DNA of 64,000 nucleotides, from the IMG/VR virus record IMGVR_UViG_3300025010_000005, positions 1 through 64,000 of that record; one strand, written 5' to 3'. Below are positions 16,835 through 26,056 of this stretch, one piece after another. How positions within the stretch are numbered: the stretch's first letter is position 1; each line of letters begins with the position of its first letter. The position numbers were made by a program, and so were the translations under genes. Under the pieces are notes generated by a model. The model was not told the DNA's origin. It did not search any database and worked only from the letters and a program-made list of their open reading frames with translations. The DNA comes from a virus.

Positions 16835-16847
16835 AAAGGAGAATAAA

Positions 16848-17642
16848 TTGCTTAAAATTAACGGGAAAGTGGTTGGTGATGAAACGTATCCAAACGGCGA
16901 GACCATTATGTATTCGGATGTTGGAATTACAGATTTGATAATGTCTTTTGAATTAAAGTTTGAAAATGATTCAGATTTGTTCAATTTGATGATGTATAAA
17001 AAATATGTTGATGAAAAATATCCCAACACACAAAAATGCTTGATTATGAGATATATTCCTTATTCAAGAATGGACAGAAAAATTGATGGTTACATTTTCA
17101 GTTTGAAATATTTTTGTCAATTTATTAACGATTTGAAATTCAATCAGGTTTTTGTTTTAGATCCTCATTCCTCGATGTCAATTGGACTGTTAAACAACGT
17201 TAGTGAATTAAATATTTCCAATTTGGTAAATAAAGCTATGTTAGGTAAAGACATCGATTACATCTTTTATCCAGACGCAGGAGCTTGTAAGAGATATAGC
17301 GAGACTTTAAATCTTTGGAAGCCTTACGATTACTTTTACGGAAATAAAAAGCGTAATTTACAAACCGGTGAAATTATTGATTATGAATTGGTTGATTGTC
17401 CGAATATCAAAGGAAAGAATATTTTAATCGTTGACGATCTTTGTTCAAAAGGATTTACATTCTATAATGCTGCTCAAAAACTAAAACAAACCGGAGCAGA
17501 TAAAATTTATCTTTATGTCTCTCATTGTGAAAACTCAATTTATGACGGAAAACTGTTGATTGGAGATTATTTAATCGAACGAATTTATACAACCGATTCA
17601 ATTCTCACAAATTTTACAAGCAAAAAGATTGTTGTACTTTAA
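16848..17642 (+). CDS. PRPP-synthetase-like enzyme; candidate ADP-ribose pyrophosphate synthetase (Adps) of the NARP1 pathway
   Basis: The ribose-phosphate pyrophosphokinase fold is shown by VLDPHSS near residue 105 and the PRPP loop ILIVDDLCSKGFTF near 205. It is 264 aa, shorter than bacterial Prs (about 315), with poor conservation in the N-terminal ATP-site half. Canonical Prs makes PRPP from ribose-5-phosphate. In phage NARP1 a Prs homologue pyrophosphorylates ADP-ribose so that a NAMPT homologue can join nicotinamide to it. The NAMPT-like gene lies 403 bp downstream in the same operon, favouring that role. TTG start at 16848 (AAAGGAG 8 nt upstream). PRPP supply to a canonical NAMPT is the alternative. 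Confidence 0.82.
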   Translation: MLKINGKVVGDETYPNGETIMYSDVGITDLIMSFELKFENDSDLFNLMMYKKYVDEKYPNTQKCLIMRYIPYSRMDRKIDGYIFSLKYFCQFINDLKFNQVFVLDPHSSMSIGLLNNVSELNISNLVNKAMLGKDIDYIFYPDAGACKRYSETLNLWKPYDYFYGNKKRNLQTGEIIDYELVDCPNIKGKNILIVDDLCSKGFTFYNAAQKLKQTGADKIYLYVSHCENSIYDGKLLIGDYLIERIYTTDSILTNFTSKKIVVL

Positions 17643-18043
17643 TGGATTATTATTTGAATTATGAAAATTGCATCAATAGATTGGTTGATGAATGGAGGTT
17701 ACATAAAAAAATCATAATTGCTTTTGATTATGACGATACGGTATTTGATTTTCACAACAAGGGAAGAAAATACAATAATGTAATTTCGCTTTTAAAAAGA
17801 TGTAATTTTGCGGGTGCTTATTTTATAGTTTTTACATGTTGCGGTGAAGACCAATATGATGAAATTTATGAATATTTAGAAAAAAACGATATACCTTGTG
17901 ATAAAATAAATGAAAATATGGATTTCATCAAATTTACAGGAAGAAAAATTTATTACAACATATTATTGGATGATAGAGCTGGACTAGAATCTGCATACGA
18001 CGTTTTAACCGAAGCAGTACATAGATATTTAAAAGGAGAATAA
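17642..18043 (+). CDS. HAD-superfamily hydrolase, 133 aa
   Basis: FDYDDTVFDF near residue 28 is the HAD nucleophile motif DxDxT/V, VFTCCGE is motif II, and LLDDRAGL near 112 is motif IV. The size fits a small phosphatase without a cap. It overlaps the previous gene (TAATG) and ends 2 bp before the NAMPT-like gene, so it is made together with both enzymes. A housekeeping phosphatase for a nucleotide or sugar phosphate in that pathway is plausible. Confidence 0.8.
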   Translation: MDYYLNYENCINRLVDEWRLHKKIIIAFDYDDTVFDFHNKGRKYNNVISLLKRCNFAGAYFIVFTCCGEDQYDEIYEYLEKNDIPCDKINENMDFIKFTGRKIYYNILLDDRAGLESAYDVLTEAVHRYLKGE

Positions 18044-18045
18044 AA

Positions 18046-19767
18046 ATGCCAAACATCGCTTATCCTGCTACCCTACTTTGCGATTTTTATAAGATTTCGC
18101 ATCGTGAACAATACCCTTCTGGTACGGAAACCGTTTATAGCACTTGGATTCCTCGCGCAAGCAGAATTAAAGGAATTAATCACGTTGTTGCTTTTGGATT
18201 TCAGGCGTTTATCAAAGAATATATGATCAAATATTTCAATGAGAATTTCTTTAATCGAAACCTTTATGATATTGTTACCGAATACAGACGAGTTATTAAG
18301 TTTACTTTGGGAGTTGATGATCCAGACGTTCAACATATTACTGATCTTCATAATCTTGGTTATCTTCCAATCAAGATTAAGGCATTGAAAGAAGGCACTC
18401 TAACTCCTCTTCGTGTTCCAATGCTTACAATGGAAAATACAGATCCTCGTTTCTTTTGGGTTACAAATTATCTCGAAACTCTAATGTCTTGTTCCATGTG
18501 GATGAGCGCAACTTCCGCAACAATCGCCTTTGAGTATCGAAAGATTCTTAACAAATATGCCATGGAAACTGTTGGAAATACAGACGGAGTTCAATTCCAG
18601 GGCCACGACTTCTCAATGAGAGGAATGGGTTCGCTTGAAACTGCAAAATATAGCGGGGCAGGACATCTTCTTTCATTCGTTGGAACCGATACAATCCCTG
18701 CAATCCTAGCCCTTGAAGAGAATTATAATGCAAATATTAAAACTGAATTGGTTGGAACTTCGATTCCGGCAACGGAACATTCAGTAATGTGCGCTCACGG
18801 TAGAGATGAATTTGCATCTTATAAGAGAATTATCACCGAGACTTATCCAAAGGGATTTGTTTCAATTGTTTCCGACACTTGGGATCTTTGGAAGGTTCTA
18901 ATTGATGTTGTTGGAAAATTAAAAACTGAAATTATGAATCGTGATGGTCGAGTTGTTATTCGTCCTGATAGCGGTGATCCAGTTGACATTATTTGCGGAA
19001 CTGTTAAAATTGACGAAGATCCAGACCTAACTCTCGATAATATTATTGATTGGTATGAAGATCTTGCTAATGATGAAGTTGATAGAGACAATATTCCTGA
19101 TAAAATGATTTATCATTGTAGAATTAATGGAAAGATTTATGAAGTTACTTGTAAAATCGAACTATCAAATGAAAGAGGCGCTTATACTGGCAATAAATAT
19201 TATATTGTTGATGAAATCAATGTTTCGTATAAGGAAGTTGAACTAACTCCTCAACAAAAGGGTGTTGTTGAAGTCCTTTGGGAAATGTTTGGCGGAACCA
19301 TTACAGACAAGGGATATAAACAGTTAGATTCTCACATTGGTTGTATTTATGGTGATGCAATTACAATTGATCGTTGTAAACAAATTTGTAAAAAACTAAA
19401 GGCAAAAGGATTTGCTTCAACGAACATTGTTCTTGGAATTGGTTCTTATACTTATCAATACAATACCAGAGATACTTTTGGTTTCGCTCTAAAATCAACT
19501 CATGTTGTTATTGACGGAGTGGAAGTTAATATCTATAAAGATCCTATCACGGATTCTGATAAGATTAAAAAGTCACTTACTGGCCGCTGTGTCGTACATG
19601 ATAATTTGCCTTATGAAAACATTGTTGTAACAGATAATCTTTCAATTACAGATCAAGAAAATATGAAATTTTGGGACATGCTTGAAGACGTTTTTGTAGA
19701 TGGAAATCTGATTCGTGACGAAAAGTTGTCCGATATTAGGAGTCGTTTGCTTAAAACGCTTGACTAA
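18046..19767 (+). CDS. Nicotinamide phosphoribosyltransferase-like enzyme; candidate Namat of the NARP1 pathway
   Basis: NAMPT/NadV family landmarks are all visible: the N-terminal CDFYKISHREQYP, GTDTIPA, PATEHSVM with the catalytic-site His, SIVSDTWDLW, VIRPDSGDP and NIYKDPITD. Canonical NAMPT joins nicotinamide to PRPP giving NMN; the NARP1 homologue joins it to ADP-ribose pyrophosphate giving NAD+ directly. The protein is 573 aa because of an insertion of about 80 residues after RPDSGDP (about 313-400), near the substrate pocket. No NMN adenylyltransferase is seen in the window, which a canonical NMN route would need from the host. Coupled to the Prs-like and HAD genes. Confidence 0.88.
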   Translation: MPNIAYPATLLCDFYKISHREQYPSGTETVYSTWIPRASRIKGINHVVAFGFQAFIKEYMIKYFNENFFNRNLYDIVTEYRRVIKFTLGVDDPDVQHITDLHNLGYLPIKIKALKEGTLTPLRVPMLTMENTDPRFFWVTNYLETLMSCSMWMSATSATIAFEYRKILNKYAMETVGNTDGVQFQGHDFSMRGMGSLETAKYSGAGHLLSFVGTDTIPAILALEENYNANIKTELVGTSIPATEHSVMCAHGRDEFASYKRIITETYPKGFVSIVSDTWDLWKVLIDVVGKLKTEIMNRDGRVVIRPDSGDPVDIICGTVKIDEDPDLTLDNIIDWYEDLANDEVDRDNIPDKMIYHCRINGKIYEVTCKIELSNERGAYTGNKYYIVDEINVSYKEVELTPQQKGVVEVLWEMFGGTITDKGYKQLDSHIGCIYGDAITIDRCKQICKKLKAKGFASTNIVLGIGSYTYQYNTRDTFGFALKSTHVVIDGVEVNIYKDPITDSDKIKKSLTGRCVVHDNLPYENIVVTDNLSITDQENMKFWDMLEDVFVDGNLIRDEKLSDIRSRLLKTLD

Positions 19768-19863: not shown

Positions 19864-19892
19864 TTGACAAGTAGATAGAACTCAGTTATAAT
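19864..19892 (+). promoter_or_regulatory. Consensus sigma70 promoter
   Basis: TTGACA (19864-19869), 17-bp spacer, TATAAT (19887-19892): a perfect match to consensus. Drives the 160-aa protein, RtcB and possibly Pol III alpha. Confidence 0.9.
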
Positions 19893-19895
19893 TAA

Positions 19896-19931
19896 GGGGT
19901 GGAGGTTAAGCCTTCGCCCCGATTTTTCTTT
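19896..19931 (+). terminator. Start-site inverted repeat with T-tract (promoter-proximal terminator or operator)
   Basis: GGGGTGGAGG pairs with CCTTCGCCCC (two G-U pairs) around TTAAG, followed by GATTTTTCTTTT. The left arm begins 4 bp after the -10 box. Transcripts starting near 19898 would hit this hairpin within about 30 nt. AGGAGG for the next gene lies just after the T-tract. Confidence 0.65.
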
Positions 19932-19943
19932 TAGGAGGTTTTA

Positions 19944-20426
19944 ATGAACATCTTTGTTCTTGATGAACGTCCCTTTGTTTCTGCTCAAATGATGTGTGAT
20001 CGTCATGTTGTCAAGATGATTGTGGAATCTGCTCAACTTCTCTGCTCTGTCTATTGGATGAATGGAATTGAAGCACCGTATAAGTTGACACATAAAAACC
20101 ATCCTTGTGCTATTTGGGTTAGTGAATCTAGGATAAACTTCGCGTGGCTTTATGCTCATTTAGCAGGATTATTGATGGAATATAAATCAAGATATGGTAA
20201 AGACCACAAAACAGAAGAAGTATATAATTGGATTTTGAATAATCCATCTGATTTTCTTGAAAACAAGGGTTTAACTAAATTCGTTCAATGTATGCCTGAA
20301 CAATATAGAATCGAAGGAGACGCCGTAACTGCTTACAGAAATTATTACATCGGAGAAAAGTCTTCGTTTGCAACTTGGAAAAATGGAAATGTACCTGAAT
20401 GGTTTGTGAAAGGAATTAACAAATGA
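19944..20426 (+). CDS. Conserved phage protein of unknown function, 160 aa
   Basis: The opening NIFVLDERPFVSAQMMCDRH, then HVVKMIVESAQLLCSVYW, HPCAIWVSES, and EYKSRYGKDHKTEE form a pattern that I recognise from many tailed phages, but I cannot name a proven function. Conserved Asp, Cys, His and Lys residues in the first 30 positions and an HP-C-W-SES segment suggest an enzyme active site. Strong AGGAGG ribosome site. Its end overlaps the RtcB gene by 4 bp (ATGA), so the two are co-translated; a role in nucleic-acid repair is inference. Confidence 0.75.
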   Translation: MNIFVLDERPFVSAQMMCDRHVVKMIVESAQLLCSVYWMNGIEAPYKLTHKNHPCAIWVSESRINFAWLYAHLAGLLMEYKSRYGKDHKTEEVYNWILNNPSDFLENKGLTKFVQCMPEQYRIEGDAVTAYRNYYIGEKSSFATWKNGNVPEWFVKGINK

Positions 20427-21613
20427 TTGAAGTTAACGGGAAGTACAACTCTGCCAAGATTTTCACCGACAACGTGGAACAATCTGCAATCTCTCAAATC
20501 ATCGAGCTTTGCTGCCAGGAATTTACTAAGGACTCAAAAATTCGTATCATGCCGGACGTTCATGCCGGAAAAGGTTGCACCGTTGGAACTACAATGACCA
20601 TACAAAATAAAGTTGTTCCTAATTTGGTTGGAGTGGACGGATCATGTGGAATGTTATGCGTTGAACTCTGCGATCAATCAATTAATTTTGCCAAACTAGA
20701 TTCTATAATTAGGGCCATGATTCCTTCTGGTTTTAATACTCGTAACGATGACAAACTTTATTCAGAAAAAGAAATTGGACTTCGTGGGCTTCGTTGTTTT
20801 GAACACATCAACTTTGAAAGAGCAAAGGCGAGCATTGGAACTCTTGGAGGTGGAAATCATTTTATCGAAGTGAATCAAAATTCCAAAGGAAATTATTATC
20901 TGGTTATTCACTCTGGAAGCCGCAACCTTGGAAAGCAAGTTGCAGAATATTATCAAGATGTTGCCGTTAAATCGATTTCAAATCACAATTTCGATAGAAA
21001 CAAAATTATTTCTGATTTTATGGCAGCAGGAAAAAAGAATGAAATCGAATCTGCTCTGAGGAATATTCCAATTGTGAAAGTTACCAAAGGACTTGAATAT
21101 CTTGAAGGAGAAGGCTTCGACAACTATATTCATGATATGAAAATTGTTCAGCGTTATGCTTACGAAAATAGACTTGCAATGGCAAGGATTATCGTTAACG
21201 AAATGCAAATTGTTCCTTTGATGAATTTTACCACCGTTCACAATTACATCGACACCAAAAATATGATTCTTCGTAAAGGCGCTGTTTCTGCTCAAAAGAA
21301 TGAAAAGTTGTTGATTCCAATGAACATGCGTGACGGTTCATTGATCTGTATTGGAAAAGGAAATGAAGATTGGAATAACTCAGCTCCTCACGGAGCCGGA
21401 AGAATCATGAGCAGATCAAAAGCAAAGGAATTGGTTGACATCGAGGAATACAAAGATTCAATGAAAAATGTCTTTACAACTTCAGTTGGATATGGTACAA
21501 TTGATGAAGCTCCAATGGCATACAAGCCGATGCAAGAAATTATTGACAATATTGGAGATACGGTTGACATTTTGGAAGTTATTAAACCTGTGTATAACTT
21601 TAAAGCGAATTAA
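20423..21613 (+). CDS. rtcB: RtcB RNA ligase
   Basis: Joins RNA 2',3'-cyclic phosphate or 3'-phosphate ends to 5'-OH ends using GTP and Mn2+. Visible signatures: MPDVHAGKGCTVGTT, LVGVDGSCGM, LGTLGGGNHFIEV, HSGSRNLG, and APHGAGRIMSR near residue 322 with the His that is guanylylated. Length (396 aa) fits the shorter RtcB branch. In a phage it can repair tRNAs cut by host anticodon nucleases, the usual explanation and an inference here. Confidence 0.93.
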   Translation: MIEVNGKYNSAKIFTDNVEQSAISQIIELCCQEFTKDSKIRIMPDVHAGKGCTVGTTMTIQNKVVPNLVGVDGSCGMLCVELCDQSINFAKLDSIIRAMIPSGFNTRNDDKLYSEKEIGLRGLRCFEHINFERAKASIGTLGGGNHFIEVNQNSKGNYYLVIHSGSRNLGKQVAEYYQDVAVKSISNHNFDRNKIISDFMAAGKKNEIESALRNIPIVKVTKGLEYLEGEGFDNYIHDMKIVQRYAYENRLAMARIIVNEMQIVPLMNFTTVHNYIDTKNMILRKGAVSAQKNEKLLIPMNMRDGSLICIGKGNEDWNNSAPHGAGRIMSRSKAKELVDIEEYKDSMKNVFTTSVGYGTIDEAPMAYKPMQEIIDNIGDTVDILEVIKPVYNFKAN

Positions 21614-21623
21614 GGAGATAAAT

Positions 21624-21761
21624 ATGAAAATTCATATTATAGCCGATACATATTTAATTGATGAGAGAACTAGGTTGGTTGAAGTTGCTGCCGCTTGGAT
21701 TAAATGCGGCTGGAAAGTCTGTAAACAAGAAACAGATAGAATTGTTTTGGAGGGAAATTAA
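21624..21761 (+). CDS. Hypothetical protein, 45 aa
   Basis: Start at 21624 with AAGGAGATAAAT before it. Starts KIHIIADTYLIDERTRLVEVAAAW and contains IKCGWKVCKQ; its stop overlaps the next ATG (TAATG), coupling it to Pol III alpha. Function unknown. Confidence 0.6.
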   Translation: MKIHIIADTYLIDERTRLVEVAAAWIKCGWKVCKQETDRIVLEGN

Positions 21762-22957
21762 TGAGAGAAACAATGGTTTCACTCCACAATCACAGCATTT
21801 ATTCGTTCAGTGATGGACTTATTAAACCAGAGGAGTTGGTTCAAAAAGCAAAGGAATTTAATGCTCCTGCTGTAGGAATTTCCGAGCATGGAAATCTTTG
21901 CTCGATGCCTGATTTTATCAAGAGTTGTGAAAAGGCAGAGATTAAACCAATTATTGCAATTGAGTTTTATATGGCGTTGGATGAAGTAAAGGGAACTCAA
22001 CGTGGCTCCAACCACATTATCTGCATCGCAAAAAATGAAGCTGGATATAAAGAGCTTCTTAAACTAACTCAAATTTCAAATATTCCAATTAAGGACGGCG
22101 GATCTTTCTTTTATCGTGCAAGAATTACCGAGAAGCTTCTTTATGCCAACTGTAAGAATCTAATCGTAACAACTGCTTGTATAGGTGGAATTATTCCTGA
22201 ATTATTGCTTGCCGATAAAGATGATGATGCTGCAATTCTTCTTGATGAAATGAAATATCATATTAAAGATTTGTATGTCGAGATTCAACCTCATGACGAT
22301 GTAAAACAAGAAAAGGCAAATCTAAAACTAATTGCTTTGGCTAAAAAGCTAGATATTCCTATTGTAACTTGTTTAGACGTTCATATGAAGGATATGAGTT
22401 ATAAAGACGTTTACAAACTTAATAGCGATCTTCGTCGTGGTGTTACAATTTCTCATTCGGAAGAATTTAAGTATTATCTCTATTACAAACCGATGAAGGA
22501 AATTTATGAAACACTCCTGGCACAAGGAATTGACGAATCGGTAATTGACGAGTCCATCGACAATACAATTAAAATTGCTGATATGTGTGATTTCAAATGG
22601 GAAAACAGAAGTTTCGATCCTCCAAAGTTTTGTGATGATGCACCAGCAGAGTTGTATAAATTGGTTTCAAAAGGTTTGGTTAACAAGTTTGGAAATAAAA
22701 TTCCCACAGCACACAAACAGAGGGCAAGACATGAATATGATGTTATTTGTAAGATGGGATTTGCTAATTATTTCCTAATCCTTGCAGATGCAATGGAATA
22801 TTGTCACAAAAGTAATATCCTTGTTGGGCCAGGTCGAGGTTCTGGAGCGTCAAGTCTTATTCTCTGGTTGCTTAACATCACTGCCTTAGATCCACTTAAA
22901 TATAATCTTCCTTTCTCACGATTCCTAAATGAAGAGAGAATTGATACTTGGCCTGAT
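21761..22957 (+). CDS. dnaE: DNA polymerase III alpha subunit, exon 1 (residues 1-399)
   Basis: N-terminal part of a C-family replicative DNA polymerase. SLHNHSIYSFSDGLIKPEE is the PHP domain opening and VGPGRGSGASSLILW is the polymerase palm motif near residue 360. The exon ends FLNEERIDTWPD, where a stop codon follows at once in the intron. Joined to 24158-26056 it gives a 1031-aa protein, close to bacterial DnaE but lacking much of the C-terminal tau-binding region. Overlaps the previous gene by one base. Confidence 0.92.
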
Positions 22958-24157
22958 TAACAATTATAATATTCTAACATTTAAGTAAAATAATCTGTAG
23001 ACAGTGATATATGGAGGTCTACAGATATGCAAAACTCGAACATTGAAAATTCTATAAGAGAAAAATGGTTGGAACTTTATCAAAGCGGATTGTCTGGAAT
23101 TAAGATAGCTAATATGTTTGGAATAAATAACTGTGTTGTTTATCGTTATCTAAAAAATCATCCCGATTATAAACCTAGAACTACAAAAGAAACGGCTAGA
23201 TTGTATGAGGTTGATGATAATTTTTTCGACACAATAGATACAGAAGAAAAAGCGTATTGGCTTGGATTTATGTATGCCGATGGATTTGTAAATACACAAA
23301 GAAATGTTGTCGGAGTAACTCTTCACAATAGAGATATAGAACATCTTGTTAAATTTAAAAAAGCTTTAAAATCAACTTATCCAATTAAAACATATGAACT
23401 TAAAACATCATATACAACGAAAGAATCTTATTGTTGCAGACTGAGAGTTTTAAGCGATAAATTAAAAAGTGATTTAATAAAAAATGGGTGCGTTGAAAAT
23501 AAAAGTTTAATTTTAAAATTTCCAGACAAAACCATGGTTCCAGATAATTTAATTTGGCATTTTATAAGAGGTTATTTTGACGGTGATGGCAGTTTAACAA
23601 ATTGGAAAGGTTCACGTTGGAACATTAAGATTTGTGGAACATATGAATTTCTTGATGGAATTAGAAATAAACTTTTTGAATGTGAGATTGATAAGTATAT
23701 TTATAAAGAGAAGAGAAATGAAAAAAATAATTATACTTTAAATTTGGCATGCAATTTGGCAATCAAAATTACCTCAAAAATGTATGAAAATTCAACCATT
23801 TTTCTTGATAGAAAATTCAATAAATATAATGATATGTTAGAATATTATAATAGTCGTCTTAAAAAGTGATTTTTAAGAATATTAGCATGTGAATTGCTGG
23901 AAACCCCTTAGAGCCACAAAAACTACAAAGAAGTTGGAAACGACAATCTTGAATGTTTGAAAATTTTGTGGATTGGGCAATCAGCAGCGAAGCCGCTAAA
24001 TCATAAGATAAGCGGAACGTTCAACGACTATCCGTGGCTGGAGTAGAGTTCTAGAGAACTCGAAGTGCATGCTGCCCTAACAAGGGTAAAGATATAGTCT
24101 GCGCTTTAGGGAAACCTAAAGAGATATAACGGAATCGGTTATATCGTAACACAACGG
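22958..24157 (+). other. Group I intron in the Pol III alpha gene
   Basis: Removing exactly 1200 nt joins ...WPD to VDTDLSPKDRPK in frame and restores the catalytic PD-x-D motif. Exon 1 ends in T and the intron ends in G (24157), as group I splicing requires. The part after the endonuclease gene holds recognisable core elements: GCTGGAAACCCCTTAGAGCC (P3/P4 side), GGGCAATCAGCAGCGAAGCC, and AACGTTCAACGACTA with the partner GATATAGTC (P7). The endonuclease frame sits in the 5' third, before the core. Splicing is inferred from sequence. Confidence 0.9.
23027..23869 (+). CDS. LAGLIDADG homing endonuclease, intron-encoded
   Basis: Two LAGLIDADG motifs, YWLGFMYADGF near residue 78 and FIRGYFDGDGS near 178, mark a single-chain double-motif endonuclease of 280 aa. 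An N-terminal helix-turn-helix (LYQSGLSGIKIANMFGI) may add DNA recognition. ATG preceded by GGAGG. It would cut intronless dnaE alleles and spread the intron. Confidence 0.93.
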   Translation: MQNSNIENSIREKWLELYQSGLSGIKIANMFGINNCVVYRYLKNHPDYKPRTTKETARLYEVDDNFFDTIDTEEKAYWLGFMYADGFVNTQRNVVGVTLHNRDIEHLVKFKKALKSTYPIKTYELKTSYTTKESYCCRLRVLSDKLKSDLIKNGCVENKSLILKFPDKTMVPDNLIWHFIRGYFDGDGSLTNWKGSRWNIKICGTYEFLDGIRNKLFECEIDKYIYKEKRNEKNNYTLNLACNLAIKITSKMYENSTIFLDRKFNKYNDMLEYYNSRLKK

Positions 24158-26056
24158 GTTGACACGGATTTAAGCCCTAAAGATAGACCAAAACTATTTA
24201 AATATATGCAAGAAAAATGGGGAGTTGATAAAGTAATCCAGATTTCAAACTATTCTTATCTTAAATCAAAAGCTGTATTAAAAGATTGTGCCAAATATCT
24301 TGAAATTGATTTTGACATTATCAACAAGATTACATCTTTGATTCCTGCCAAAAGTGCAGACGAAGACGGAAATCCAATCGAAGTTGATATGGACGAAGTC
24401 CTAACACTACCTCAAATGCAATCATACATTGAGAAGTATCCAGAAATGTTCAAACTGGCGAAGAAGCTTGAGGGTTCAATTCGAGGTGCTAATATTCATG
24501 CGGGAGGTCTCGTAATTCTTCCACAACCAATTGATGAGATTATTCCAGTAACAAAGAAAAAAGGTGATGATGGAAGCGATGTTTATGTTTCTCAATGGAA
24601 CAAAAAACAGATTGAATCCATTGGTTTAATTAAATTTGACTTTCTTGGATTATCAACTCTTGATGTTTTATCTGATTGCGAAGAATTAACTGGTATGAAT
24701 CCAAACGACATTCCTTTAGATGACGAAAATACTTGGGAATTTCTCAAGCAAGGTAAAAATATGCTCGGTGTTTTCCAATTGGCGGAAAATAAAACAAAGA
24801 AACTCCTTCGTGATGTTCAACCATATCGACTTCAAGACCTTTCGGACATTAACGCACTAATCAGACCAGGGATGGACATTGAATCTTATTTGAGTAATAA
24901 AAAAGCCAAAAAGATTACATATCAATTCAATATTCCTGAATGGCAAGAAGAACTAAAAGATACTTGTGGCATCGTGCTTTATCAGGAAAACGTTATTCGT
25001 CTTGCGAACAAACTTGGCGGACTAACTTTAGGTCAAGGCGATATGCTTCGTCGAGCAATGGAAAAAAATAAAACAGAAGAGATCCAAAAGTGGAAGAAGG
25101 TGTTCGTTGAAAACTGTAAATATAAAGACATTGCAGAAAATTTGTTTGAGGCTATTGGCGGAAATGCTTCGTACAGTTTTAACTCTAGTCATAGTTTGGT
25201 TTATAGTCTTATTGGCTATTGGTGTGCTTACTACAAAGTAAACCATCCTGAAGCATTCCTGGTCTCTCAAATCAATCATCCAAAAAGTAGTGCCAAACAA
25301 AATGAGTCTGAATACATCGAATCTTTCATTAAAGAAGCCGCTTGTATGGGAACTAAATTAAAGCTTCCTGTATTACGCAGTAATTCACCAACAACGGTTC
25401 TAATCGAAGGTGAAGTGTTTTACGGCTTAACTGGAATTAAAGGTATTTCAGAGACAACAGCAAAGATTCTAACAAAGATCAATGCAAAAGATTTTGATGA
25501 TTATGTTGACAAAGCATTAAACATTAAAAAAGTTTCAATTACAAATGGAAAGAGAATATCTCGTCAATCAATTACAAAAGCACACATTGAGTCTTTAGTC
25601 AAGATTGGATTCTTTGGTGATGTTTACGAGAATCTGGACAAATATCATAATTGGTTGATTGAGCAAAATAGATCAGAAAAGACTGGTTATATTTCTGAAA
25701 AGGTGATGGCAGGTCTAAATATTGAAAGGGAAAAAGACCTTGCAATTTCACCAGAAGATCATGCAAATGACTCTTTAGGTTTTTGTTGGTTCTCAAAGAT
25801 AGCAAGAATTTATGATGGTCTTCATATCAAATATCAGGATAAAGATTCCTGGATGTTGATTGAGGTTAACGAAGTTAGAAAAGGCAATAAGAATGGTCGT
25901 GACTGGAAGATGATTAAAGGTGAAACTTTAGACGGAGACATAACAGCATTCTGCGATACTTGCGGAGTCGTAAGTAAAGGCGATGTTATATTAGCATCAT
26001 TCAAGCGAGGAAGGTCTGATGCTATCTCTATAAGTGAGATTCACCTAGTTTCTTAA
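24158..26056 (+). CDS. dnaE: DNA polymerase III alpha subunit, exon 2 (residues 400-1031)
   Basis: Begins VDTDLSP, supplying the second catalytic Asp. Further landmarks are GANIHAGGLVILP, FDFLGLSTLDVL, the fingers region LIRPGMDIESYL, YQENVIRLANKLGGLTLGQGD and FNSSHSLVYSLIGYWCAYYK, then a helix-hairpin-helix region (YGLTGIKGISETTAKIL) and an OB-fold C-terminus. There is no ATG for independent translation at the junction; the first is at codon 17. Confidence 0.92.
   Translation, partial: VDTDLSPKDRPKLFKYMQEKWGVDKVIQISNYSYLKSKAVLKDCAKYLEIDFDIINKITSLIPAKSADEDGNPIEVDMDEVLTLPQMQSYIEKYPEMFKLAKKLEGSIRGANIHAGGLVILPQPIDEIIPVTKKKGDDGSDVYVSQWNKKQIESIGLIKFDFLGLSTLDVLSDCEELTGMNPNDIPLDDENTWEFLKQGKNMLGVFQLAENKTKKLLRDVQPYRLQDLSDINALIRPGMDIESYLSNKKAKKITYQFNIPEWQEELKDTCGIVLYQENVIRLANKLGGLTLGQGDMLRRAMEKNKTEEIQKWKKVFVENCKYKDIAENLFEAIGGNASYSFNSSHSLVYSLIGYWCAYYKVNHPEAFLVSQINHPKSSAKQNESEYIESFIKEAACMGTKLKLPVLRSNSPTTVLIEGEVFYGLTGIKGISETTAKILTKINAKDFDDYVDKALNIKKVSITNGKRISRQSITKAHIESLVKIGFFGDVYENLDKYHNWLIEQNRSEKTGYISEKVMAGLNIEREKDLAISPEDHANDSLGFCWFSKIARIYDGLHIKYQDKDSWMLIEVNEVRKGNKNGRDWKMIKGETLDGDITAFCDTCGVVSKGDVILASFKRGRSDAISISEIHLVS

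Follow-up and report, generated by a model that had tools for sequence, protein, structure and literature searches.

The DNA analyzed here (the window) comprises positions 1 to 64,000 of the IMG/VR virus record IMGVR_UViG_3300025010_000005, a 100,704-bp sequence of which the 64,000-nucleotide window is a part. The window harbors an operon of three genes, encoding a homolog of phosphoribosyl pyrophosphate (PRPP) synthetase (Prs), a HAD phosphatase, and a homolog of NAMPT and NadV (collectively Nam proteins). The first and third correspond to Adps and Namat of the NAD+ reconstitution pathway NARP1, to which two enzymes and a role against immunity have so far been assigned. The sequences themselves establish what the genes are and to which families they belong, and show that the catalytic residues are intact and that the linkage of the HAD to Adps and Namat is conserved. 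The core of the operon is known NARP1; the HAD is what is new. It looks like an undescribed third component of NARP1 that travels with Adps and Namat in phages and bacteria. It is probable that the three genes form a coupled NARP1 operon in which the HAD acts as a phosphatase of phosphorylated ADP-ribose (ADPR) and feeds Adps.

The linkage was assessed with loci selected by the HAD alone. A scan of viral contigs with the single HAD sequence gave no match, but an alignment-based scan yielded 70 viral loci and 65 loci from a bacterial collection, which fell into 92 distinct clusters at 80% identity (L numbers below designate loci). A Prs/Adps gene and a Nam gene both lie within 6 kb of the HAD in 63 of these clusters, and one of the two does so in 9 more. 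The HAD is no more than 100 bp from a partner in 65 of the 72 partnered clusters and is always on the same strand. Four gene orders were found: Prs-HAD-Nam (39), Nam-HAD-Prs (13), Prs-Nam-HAD (6), and HAD-Prs-Nam (5). The HAD-Adps-Namat linkage is seen in phages, Bacillota, and Bacteroidota, with concordant linkage in the annotated phages cr126_1, DAC15, cr111_1, Phass-1, and VPT02, and the Namat clamp described below is present in nearly all Nam partners. Since the linkage is kept through rearrangement and across phages and two bacterial phyla, it is not the result of chance. Within one bacterial family of 105 genomes, the HAD is encoded in 3, all of which belong to the 8 genomes with Namat, and the distance is at most 2.3 kb. 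The first-pass annotation of the window regarded the HAD as an added component. This was correct but understated, as the HAD is a recurrent partner rather than a local oddity. The literature covered, which excluded the founding 2024 NARP paper and leaves an earlier mention possible, contained no account of a HAD in NARP1. The HAD is considered a new addition to the known core because neither PMC12774641 nor PMC13232231 mentions a phosphatase.

The HAD protein did not match any Pfam family. It was assigned to phrog_1238 (3.7e-27), which PHROG names "phosphoheptose isomerase". That name, which implies a SIS fold, is rejected for the HAD in view of its motifs and fold; matches to isomerases had TM scores of about 0.25-0.28. 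HAD motifs I-IV (DxD, T/S, K, DD) are all present, and 39 diverse relatives show no variation at D29, D31, K102, D110, and D111 and almost none at T65. The AlphaFold2 model (pLDDT 95.6) is a small capless HAD. The nearest solved structures are all remote and include BT_0820 (2OBB), Pnkp1 (4xru, E 0.03), and a protein of phage HY126 (9IQW); T4 Pnkp was also matched. The BT0820-type HAD and 9IQW, the arabinose-1,5-diphosphate phosphatase AfhF, share the small capless fold with the window HAD but are distant from it (profile E values of 2e-6 and 9e-3, respectively). Membership in the BT0820 family itself is rejected by a score of 17.4 bits against the NCBIfam NF046079 cutoff of 165, and a genome search agreed; BT0820-like matches in Flavobacteriales show no linkage to Namat.

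From these features we infer the enzyme activities, the HAD substrate, and an anti-defense role as follows. Adps would transfer the pyrophosphate of ATP to the 1''-OH of ADPR to yield ADPR-pyrophosphate (ADPR-PP), which Namat would combine with nicotinamide in a single step to form NAD+ and inorganic pyrophosphate (PPi). The phage would thereby regain NAD+ from the products of NAD+-cleaving host defenses. The HAD probably serves as a dedicated accessory phosphatase of the pathway; its likely substrate is an ADP-ribosyl phosphate unusable by Adps, from which it would strip the terminal phosphate. Candidate substrates are ADPR-1''-phosphate, a RES-type product, and 2'-phospho-ADPR derived from NADP+; in either case the predicted result is a larger ADPR pool.

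A function as an ADP-ribosyl-phosphate phosphatase is favored because a macrodomain can occupy the HAD slot, because ADPR-1''-phosphate lacks the free 1''-OH on which Adps has to place the pyrophosphate, and because RyDEP provides a precedent. ADPR-1''-phosphate phosphatases occur among macrodomains. A macrodomain gene (phrog_335, named "phosphatase") lies between Prs and Nam in L148, L151, L162, and L187, the slot filled by the HAD in the window, and in L220 a macrodomain separates Nam from NadE, a position taken by the HAD in Phass-1, L019, and L132. Weak PDB matches of the macrodomain are named ADPR-1''-phosphate phosphatase. Among 80 viral Namat loci, 19 contain a macrodomain, 12 contain the HAD, and none contains both (chance about 0.03, or 0.044 with a 17-locus list). 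RES toxins, which are NAD+ phosphorylases, convert NAD+ to ADPR-1''-phosphate (PMC9503650), and RyDEP is a proven enzyme within a NARP1 operon that supplies ADPR (PMC13232231). Other accessory genes of Namat loci also relate to ADPR: macrodomains are found in 18-19 phage loci, NADAR in 8, and ADP-ribosylglycohydrolase in 8, and the ADPR-sensing regulator NrtR is found at 39 bacterial loci. Nucleoside deoxyribosyltransferase-like genes occur at 9 loci.

A conserved third enzyme, if confirmed, would mean that phages also recover ADPR that immunity has locked as phosphates. This in turn predicts that such phages would resist RES-type systems, which phosphorolyse NAD+. In bacteria, the genes found next to NARP1 copies (NrtR, NADAR, macrodomain, and ADP-ribosylglycohydrolase) suggest that the pathway may recycle ADPR to NAD+. 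Genes for NADAR and ADP-ribosylglycohydrolase flank the Adps-HAD-Namat modules of the bacterial loci L089, L091, L101, L114, L126, and L133, and L101 also has a macrodomain. Paenibacillus psychroresistens has an NrtR-HAD-Adps-Namat-PnuC-NadR cluster (L081). A 735-kb phage (LR756501, L004) and its IMG/VR relative L069 carry an NAD+ gene cluster consisting of PncB, a second HAD-like gene, NadE, the HAD, PnuC, NadR, and PncA.

Several observations weigh against this explanation. The HAD is present in 12 (strict) and up to 16 of the 80 viral Namat loci, or about 15%, and in 3 of the 8 Namat-bearing genomes of the 105-genome family. In a bacterial order of 148 genomes, Namat is encoded in 11, and a strong HAD match was obtained only in the seed genome. 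An obligatory role for the HAD is rejected, as most Namat loci lack it; the HAD is optional and NARP1 therefore works without it. Moreover, the HAD abuts a canonical Prs (with the motif DLHADQIQGFF), and no Namat is nearby, in phages L035, L052, and L053, while other HADs lie beside metallophosphoesterase genes (the L020 group) or radical-SAM genes (L024, L026). A broader role is therefore possible. The mutual exclusion of HAD and macrodomain is statistically weak (P about 0.03-0.04, with relatedness ignored). Finally, the PRPP loop of the window Adps is SKGFTF, with phenylalanine in place of the second glycine of GGT, a loop common to the window protein and its nearest relative, L008. As a separate observation, L052 also carries Sir2 and Thg1-like genes.

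It is possible, but unlikely, that the HAD instead acts on by-products of plain NARP1, either as an inorganic pyrophosphatase that pulls Namat forward or as an AMP nucleotidase that removes the AMP made by Adps. PPi and AMP are established by-products of Prs and NAMPT homologs and would arise in Adps and Namat chemistry, and Foldseek viral matches of the HAD include proteins named 5'-nucleotidase. A by-product role also better explains the three HADs beside canonical Prs. However, it leaves unexplained both the macrodomain in the HAD slot and those HADs (L073, L076) that have macrodomain and NADAR genes but no Adps as neighbors, and no specific pyrophosphatase similarity was found for the HAD. 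A still less likely alternative is that the HAD is a PNKP-like RNA-end phosphatase that merely shares the operon and belongs to an RNA-repair or counter-defense island. The RtcB RNA ligase gene downstream of the operon (20423-21613) and the fold matches to Pnkp1 and T4 Pnkp are consistent with such a function, and SAK-like HADs next to phage sirtuins, with SP15-type phages as the case in point, have been described in RNA repair (Iyer et al. 2022, PMC9503650). Yet the HAD follows Adps and Namat across phyla and gene orders, bacterial chromosomes included, and the HAD profile did not match in the one T5-like phage sirtuin locus examined. The ADPR-phosphate phosphatase is thus preferred to both.

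The assignment of the operon core to NARP1 is clearest for the third gene. Its product matched NAPRTase (5e-41), NAMPT_N, and phrog_448 (7e-191), and the closest PDB entries are 9W5X and 9W5W (E 1e-215), in which SPbetaL1 Namat is bound to nicotinamide or NAD+ (PMC12774641). The experimentally tested SPbetaL1 enzyme and the window protein are 67% identical over the aligned part. For SPbetaL1 Namat, the residues that contact NAD+ have been listed and a clamp signature, GSX-phi-X-phi-X-phi-TRD, has been defined (PMC12774641). In the alignment to SPbetaL1, 18 tabulated NAD+-contact positions are kept in the window protein, and F392 is changed to tyrosine. The selectivity-clamp helix is represented by GSYTYQYNTRD, with aromatic residues at positions 3 and 7. 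The clamp loop, which has an Arg, Lys, or Tyr that stacks on adenine, is represented by R40 within PRASR, aligned with R40 of SPbetaL1. At the clamp region, the six canonical NAMPT/NadV proteins compared carry sequences of the GGGLLQ type, which the window protein lacks. The NAMPT-like catalytic core is complete, comprising Phe189, Arg192, Asp215, Arg306, Asp308, and the catalytic histidine, H245 within ATEHSVM. In a 55-row tree, the window and SPbetaL1 proteins fall in a clade with support of 100/98, and the canonical NAMPTs are separate with 100/100, which places the NAMPT homolog with characterized Namat and not with canonical NadV. The protein is predicted to form NAD+ directly from ADPR-PP.

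The product of the first gene matched Pribosyltran, Pribosyl_synth, and phrog_619 (ribose-phosphate pyrophosphokinase, 3.6e-70), and it matched solved Prs structures weakly (best E 1e-14). It is 41% identical to SPbetaL1 Adps. Its motifs YSRMDR and DPHS are of the Adps type; the corresponding sequences of canonical Prs are RQDK and DLHADQIQGFF. Both DLHAxQIQGFF and DTGGT are absent. A branch with 100/100 support separates the protein and SPbetaL1 Adps from the three canonical Prs rows included. Because the tree has long branches, Adps is placed with less certainty than Namat. The protein is Adps-like and is predicted to pyrophosphorylate ADPR.

The first-pass annotation had also relied on the lack of an NMN (nicotinamide mononucleotide) adenylyltransferase. 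The lack extends to the whole 100,704-bp record, which may be incomplete and in which no match to CTP_transf_like (PF01467) was found, but it is weak as evidence for NARP1 by itself because hosts, in which this activity is usual, supply NMN adenylyltransferases. Canonical salvage, in which gene 1 would make PRPP from ribose-5-phosphate, gene 3 would make NMN, and a host enzyme would complete NAD+, is very improbable: although SPbetaL1 Namat also turns PRPP into NMN in vitro (PMC12774641), the window protein is of the Namat type in its clamp motif, its contact residues, and its position in the tree, and its Prs-like partner lacks both canonical motifs. The preference for NARP1 over canonical Prs/NadV has been borne out by every sequence test, including the PDB match, the clamp and contacts, the trees, and the missing NMN adenylyltransferase, and NARP1 is the supported assignment at this level.

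Comparison with known systems emphasizes what is distinct about the window operon. SPbetaL1 NARP1 (Adps WIT26982, Namat WIT26983) likewise has adjacent Adps and Namat with the same clamp and catalytic residues, but it has no HAD between or beside the pair and its Namat lacks the 80-residue insert; the window has both. The bacterial NARP1 of Paenibacillus foliorum is a chromosomal Adps-Namat pair with relatives in Paenibacillus and Cohnella. The paper describing it names no phosphatase (PMC12774641), whereas related Paenibacillus and Cohnella loci are HAD-Adps-Namat. The NARP1 operon of mycobacteriophage DyoEdafos also includes an added enzyme that feeds ADPR, RyDEP (PMC13232231). Whereas RyDEP, a RyR-fold glycosidase, acts on cyclic ADPR, the added gene in the window encodes a HAD phosphatase. 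NARP2-type NadV-NadM phages (KVP40-like V09, Caulobacter Ccr10, and Stenotrophomonas Yut2) share the NAMPT fold and nicotinamide salvage with the window, but have the canonical GGG-type motif and an annotated partner that is NadM or a cytidylyltransferase rather than Adps.

Some relatives of the operon suggest a nicotinic-acid version of NARP1. Seven Namat-like proteins are encoded in operons with NadE (Phass-1/L005, L019, L032, L092, L132, L139, and L220), six of which also include PncA. These operons also hold Adps plus HAD or macrodomain, as in the five-gene version PncA-Adps-Namat-HAD-NadE, and those Prs partners that were examined are of the Adps type. Asp215 of SPbetaL1 Namat hydrogen-bonds nicotinamide, whose amide it binds. 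This position is alanine in all seven NadE-operon Namats, and Asp or Glu in 164 of 164 Nam proteins without NadE or PncA nearby. The changes from Asp215 to Ala are few, since five of the six PncA operons are in one clade. A regex search detected no NMN adenylyltransferase-like open reading frame (ORF) in the NadE-operon loci. Based on these sequence features, nicotinamide would be converted to nicotinic acid and joined with ADPR-PP to form nicotinic acid adenine dinucleotide, which NadE would amidate to NAD+. No paper on PncA/NadE NARP1 operons was found in the literature covered. More tentatively, NARP1 may be part of a wider ADPR salvage system, with the HAD phosphatase, replaceable by a macrodomain, as an undescribed third enzyme and the nicotinic-acid route as an undescribed branch.

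The first-pass annotation had placed an insert of 80 residues near the ribose-phosphate site of the window Namat. The insert exists; it follows RPDSG and precedes the second ribose-phosphate strand (residues ~321-403). The AlphaFold2 model (pLDDT 87.7) depicts it as a helix and three strands with lower confidence. As a marker of NARP1 or of specificity it is rejected: at least 40 residues are present at this position in 51 of 189 Nam proteins, phage Namats often carry the insert, and it is missing from the tested SPbetaL1 Namat. Insert-bearing Nam proteins include that of phage vB_BcoS-136 and, judged by length, those of Felixounavirus momo (593 aa) and Listeria LMTA-148 (594 aa). A tblastn search with the insert alone gave no match.

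The three ORFs were recovered at the coordinates and on the strand originally reported, and their tight coupling is apparent. The ATG of the HAD gene overlaps the stop codon of the Prs-like gene (TAATG), and the Namat-like ATG is 2 nucleotides 3' of the HAD stop codon. A single translation-coupled operon of the NARP1 kind is the probable arrangement, as part of the explanation given above.

Features of the NARP1-type operon in the window
Feature	Position	Strand	Remarks
Ribosome-binding-site-like AAAGGAG	16835..16841	+	5' of TTG start; sequence
Adps-like (PRPP-synthetase homolog)	16848..17642	+	264 aa; TTG start; stop 17640-17642; predicted ADP-ribose pyrophosphokinase
HAD phosphatase, capless (C0)	17642..18043	+	133 aa; ATG 17642; recurrent third gene of NARP1-type operons
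Ribosome-binding-site-like AAAAGGAG	18031..18038	+	within HAD 3' end, for Namat; sequence
Namat-like (nicotinamide ADP-ribose transferase)	18046..19767	+	573 aa; ATG 18046
Namat insert, ~80 residues (~321-403)	19006..19254	+	helix and three strands predicted
Selectivity-clamp helix motif GSYTYQYNTRD, residues 466-476	19441..19473	+	motif alignment
Promoter-like site, 12/12	19864-19892	+	abuts 5' side of terminator-like hairpin; consensus match only
Terminator-like hairpin, 11 pairs, T tail	19896..19920	+	probable operon end; consensus match only

Besides DNA polymerase III alpha, the record encodes a tail sheath and a baseplate wedge, which indicate a contractile-tailed phage (myovirus). A Pyr_excise-like (pyrimidine-dimer glycosylase-like) gene lies just 3' of the NAD+ operon (19944-20426). 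The DNA polymerase III alpha gene (21761-26056) is interrupted by a group I intron (Rfam RF00028, 23834-24121), and a LAGLIDADG endonuclease ORF (23027-23869) lies within the split gene.

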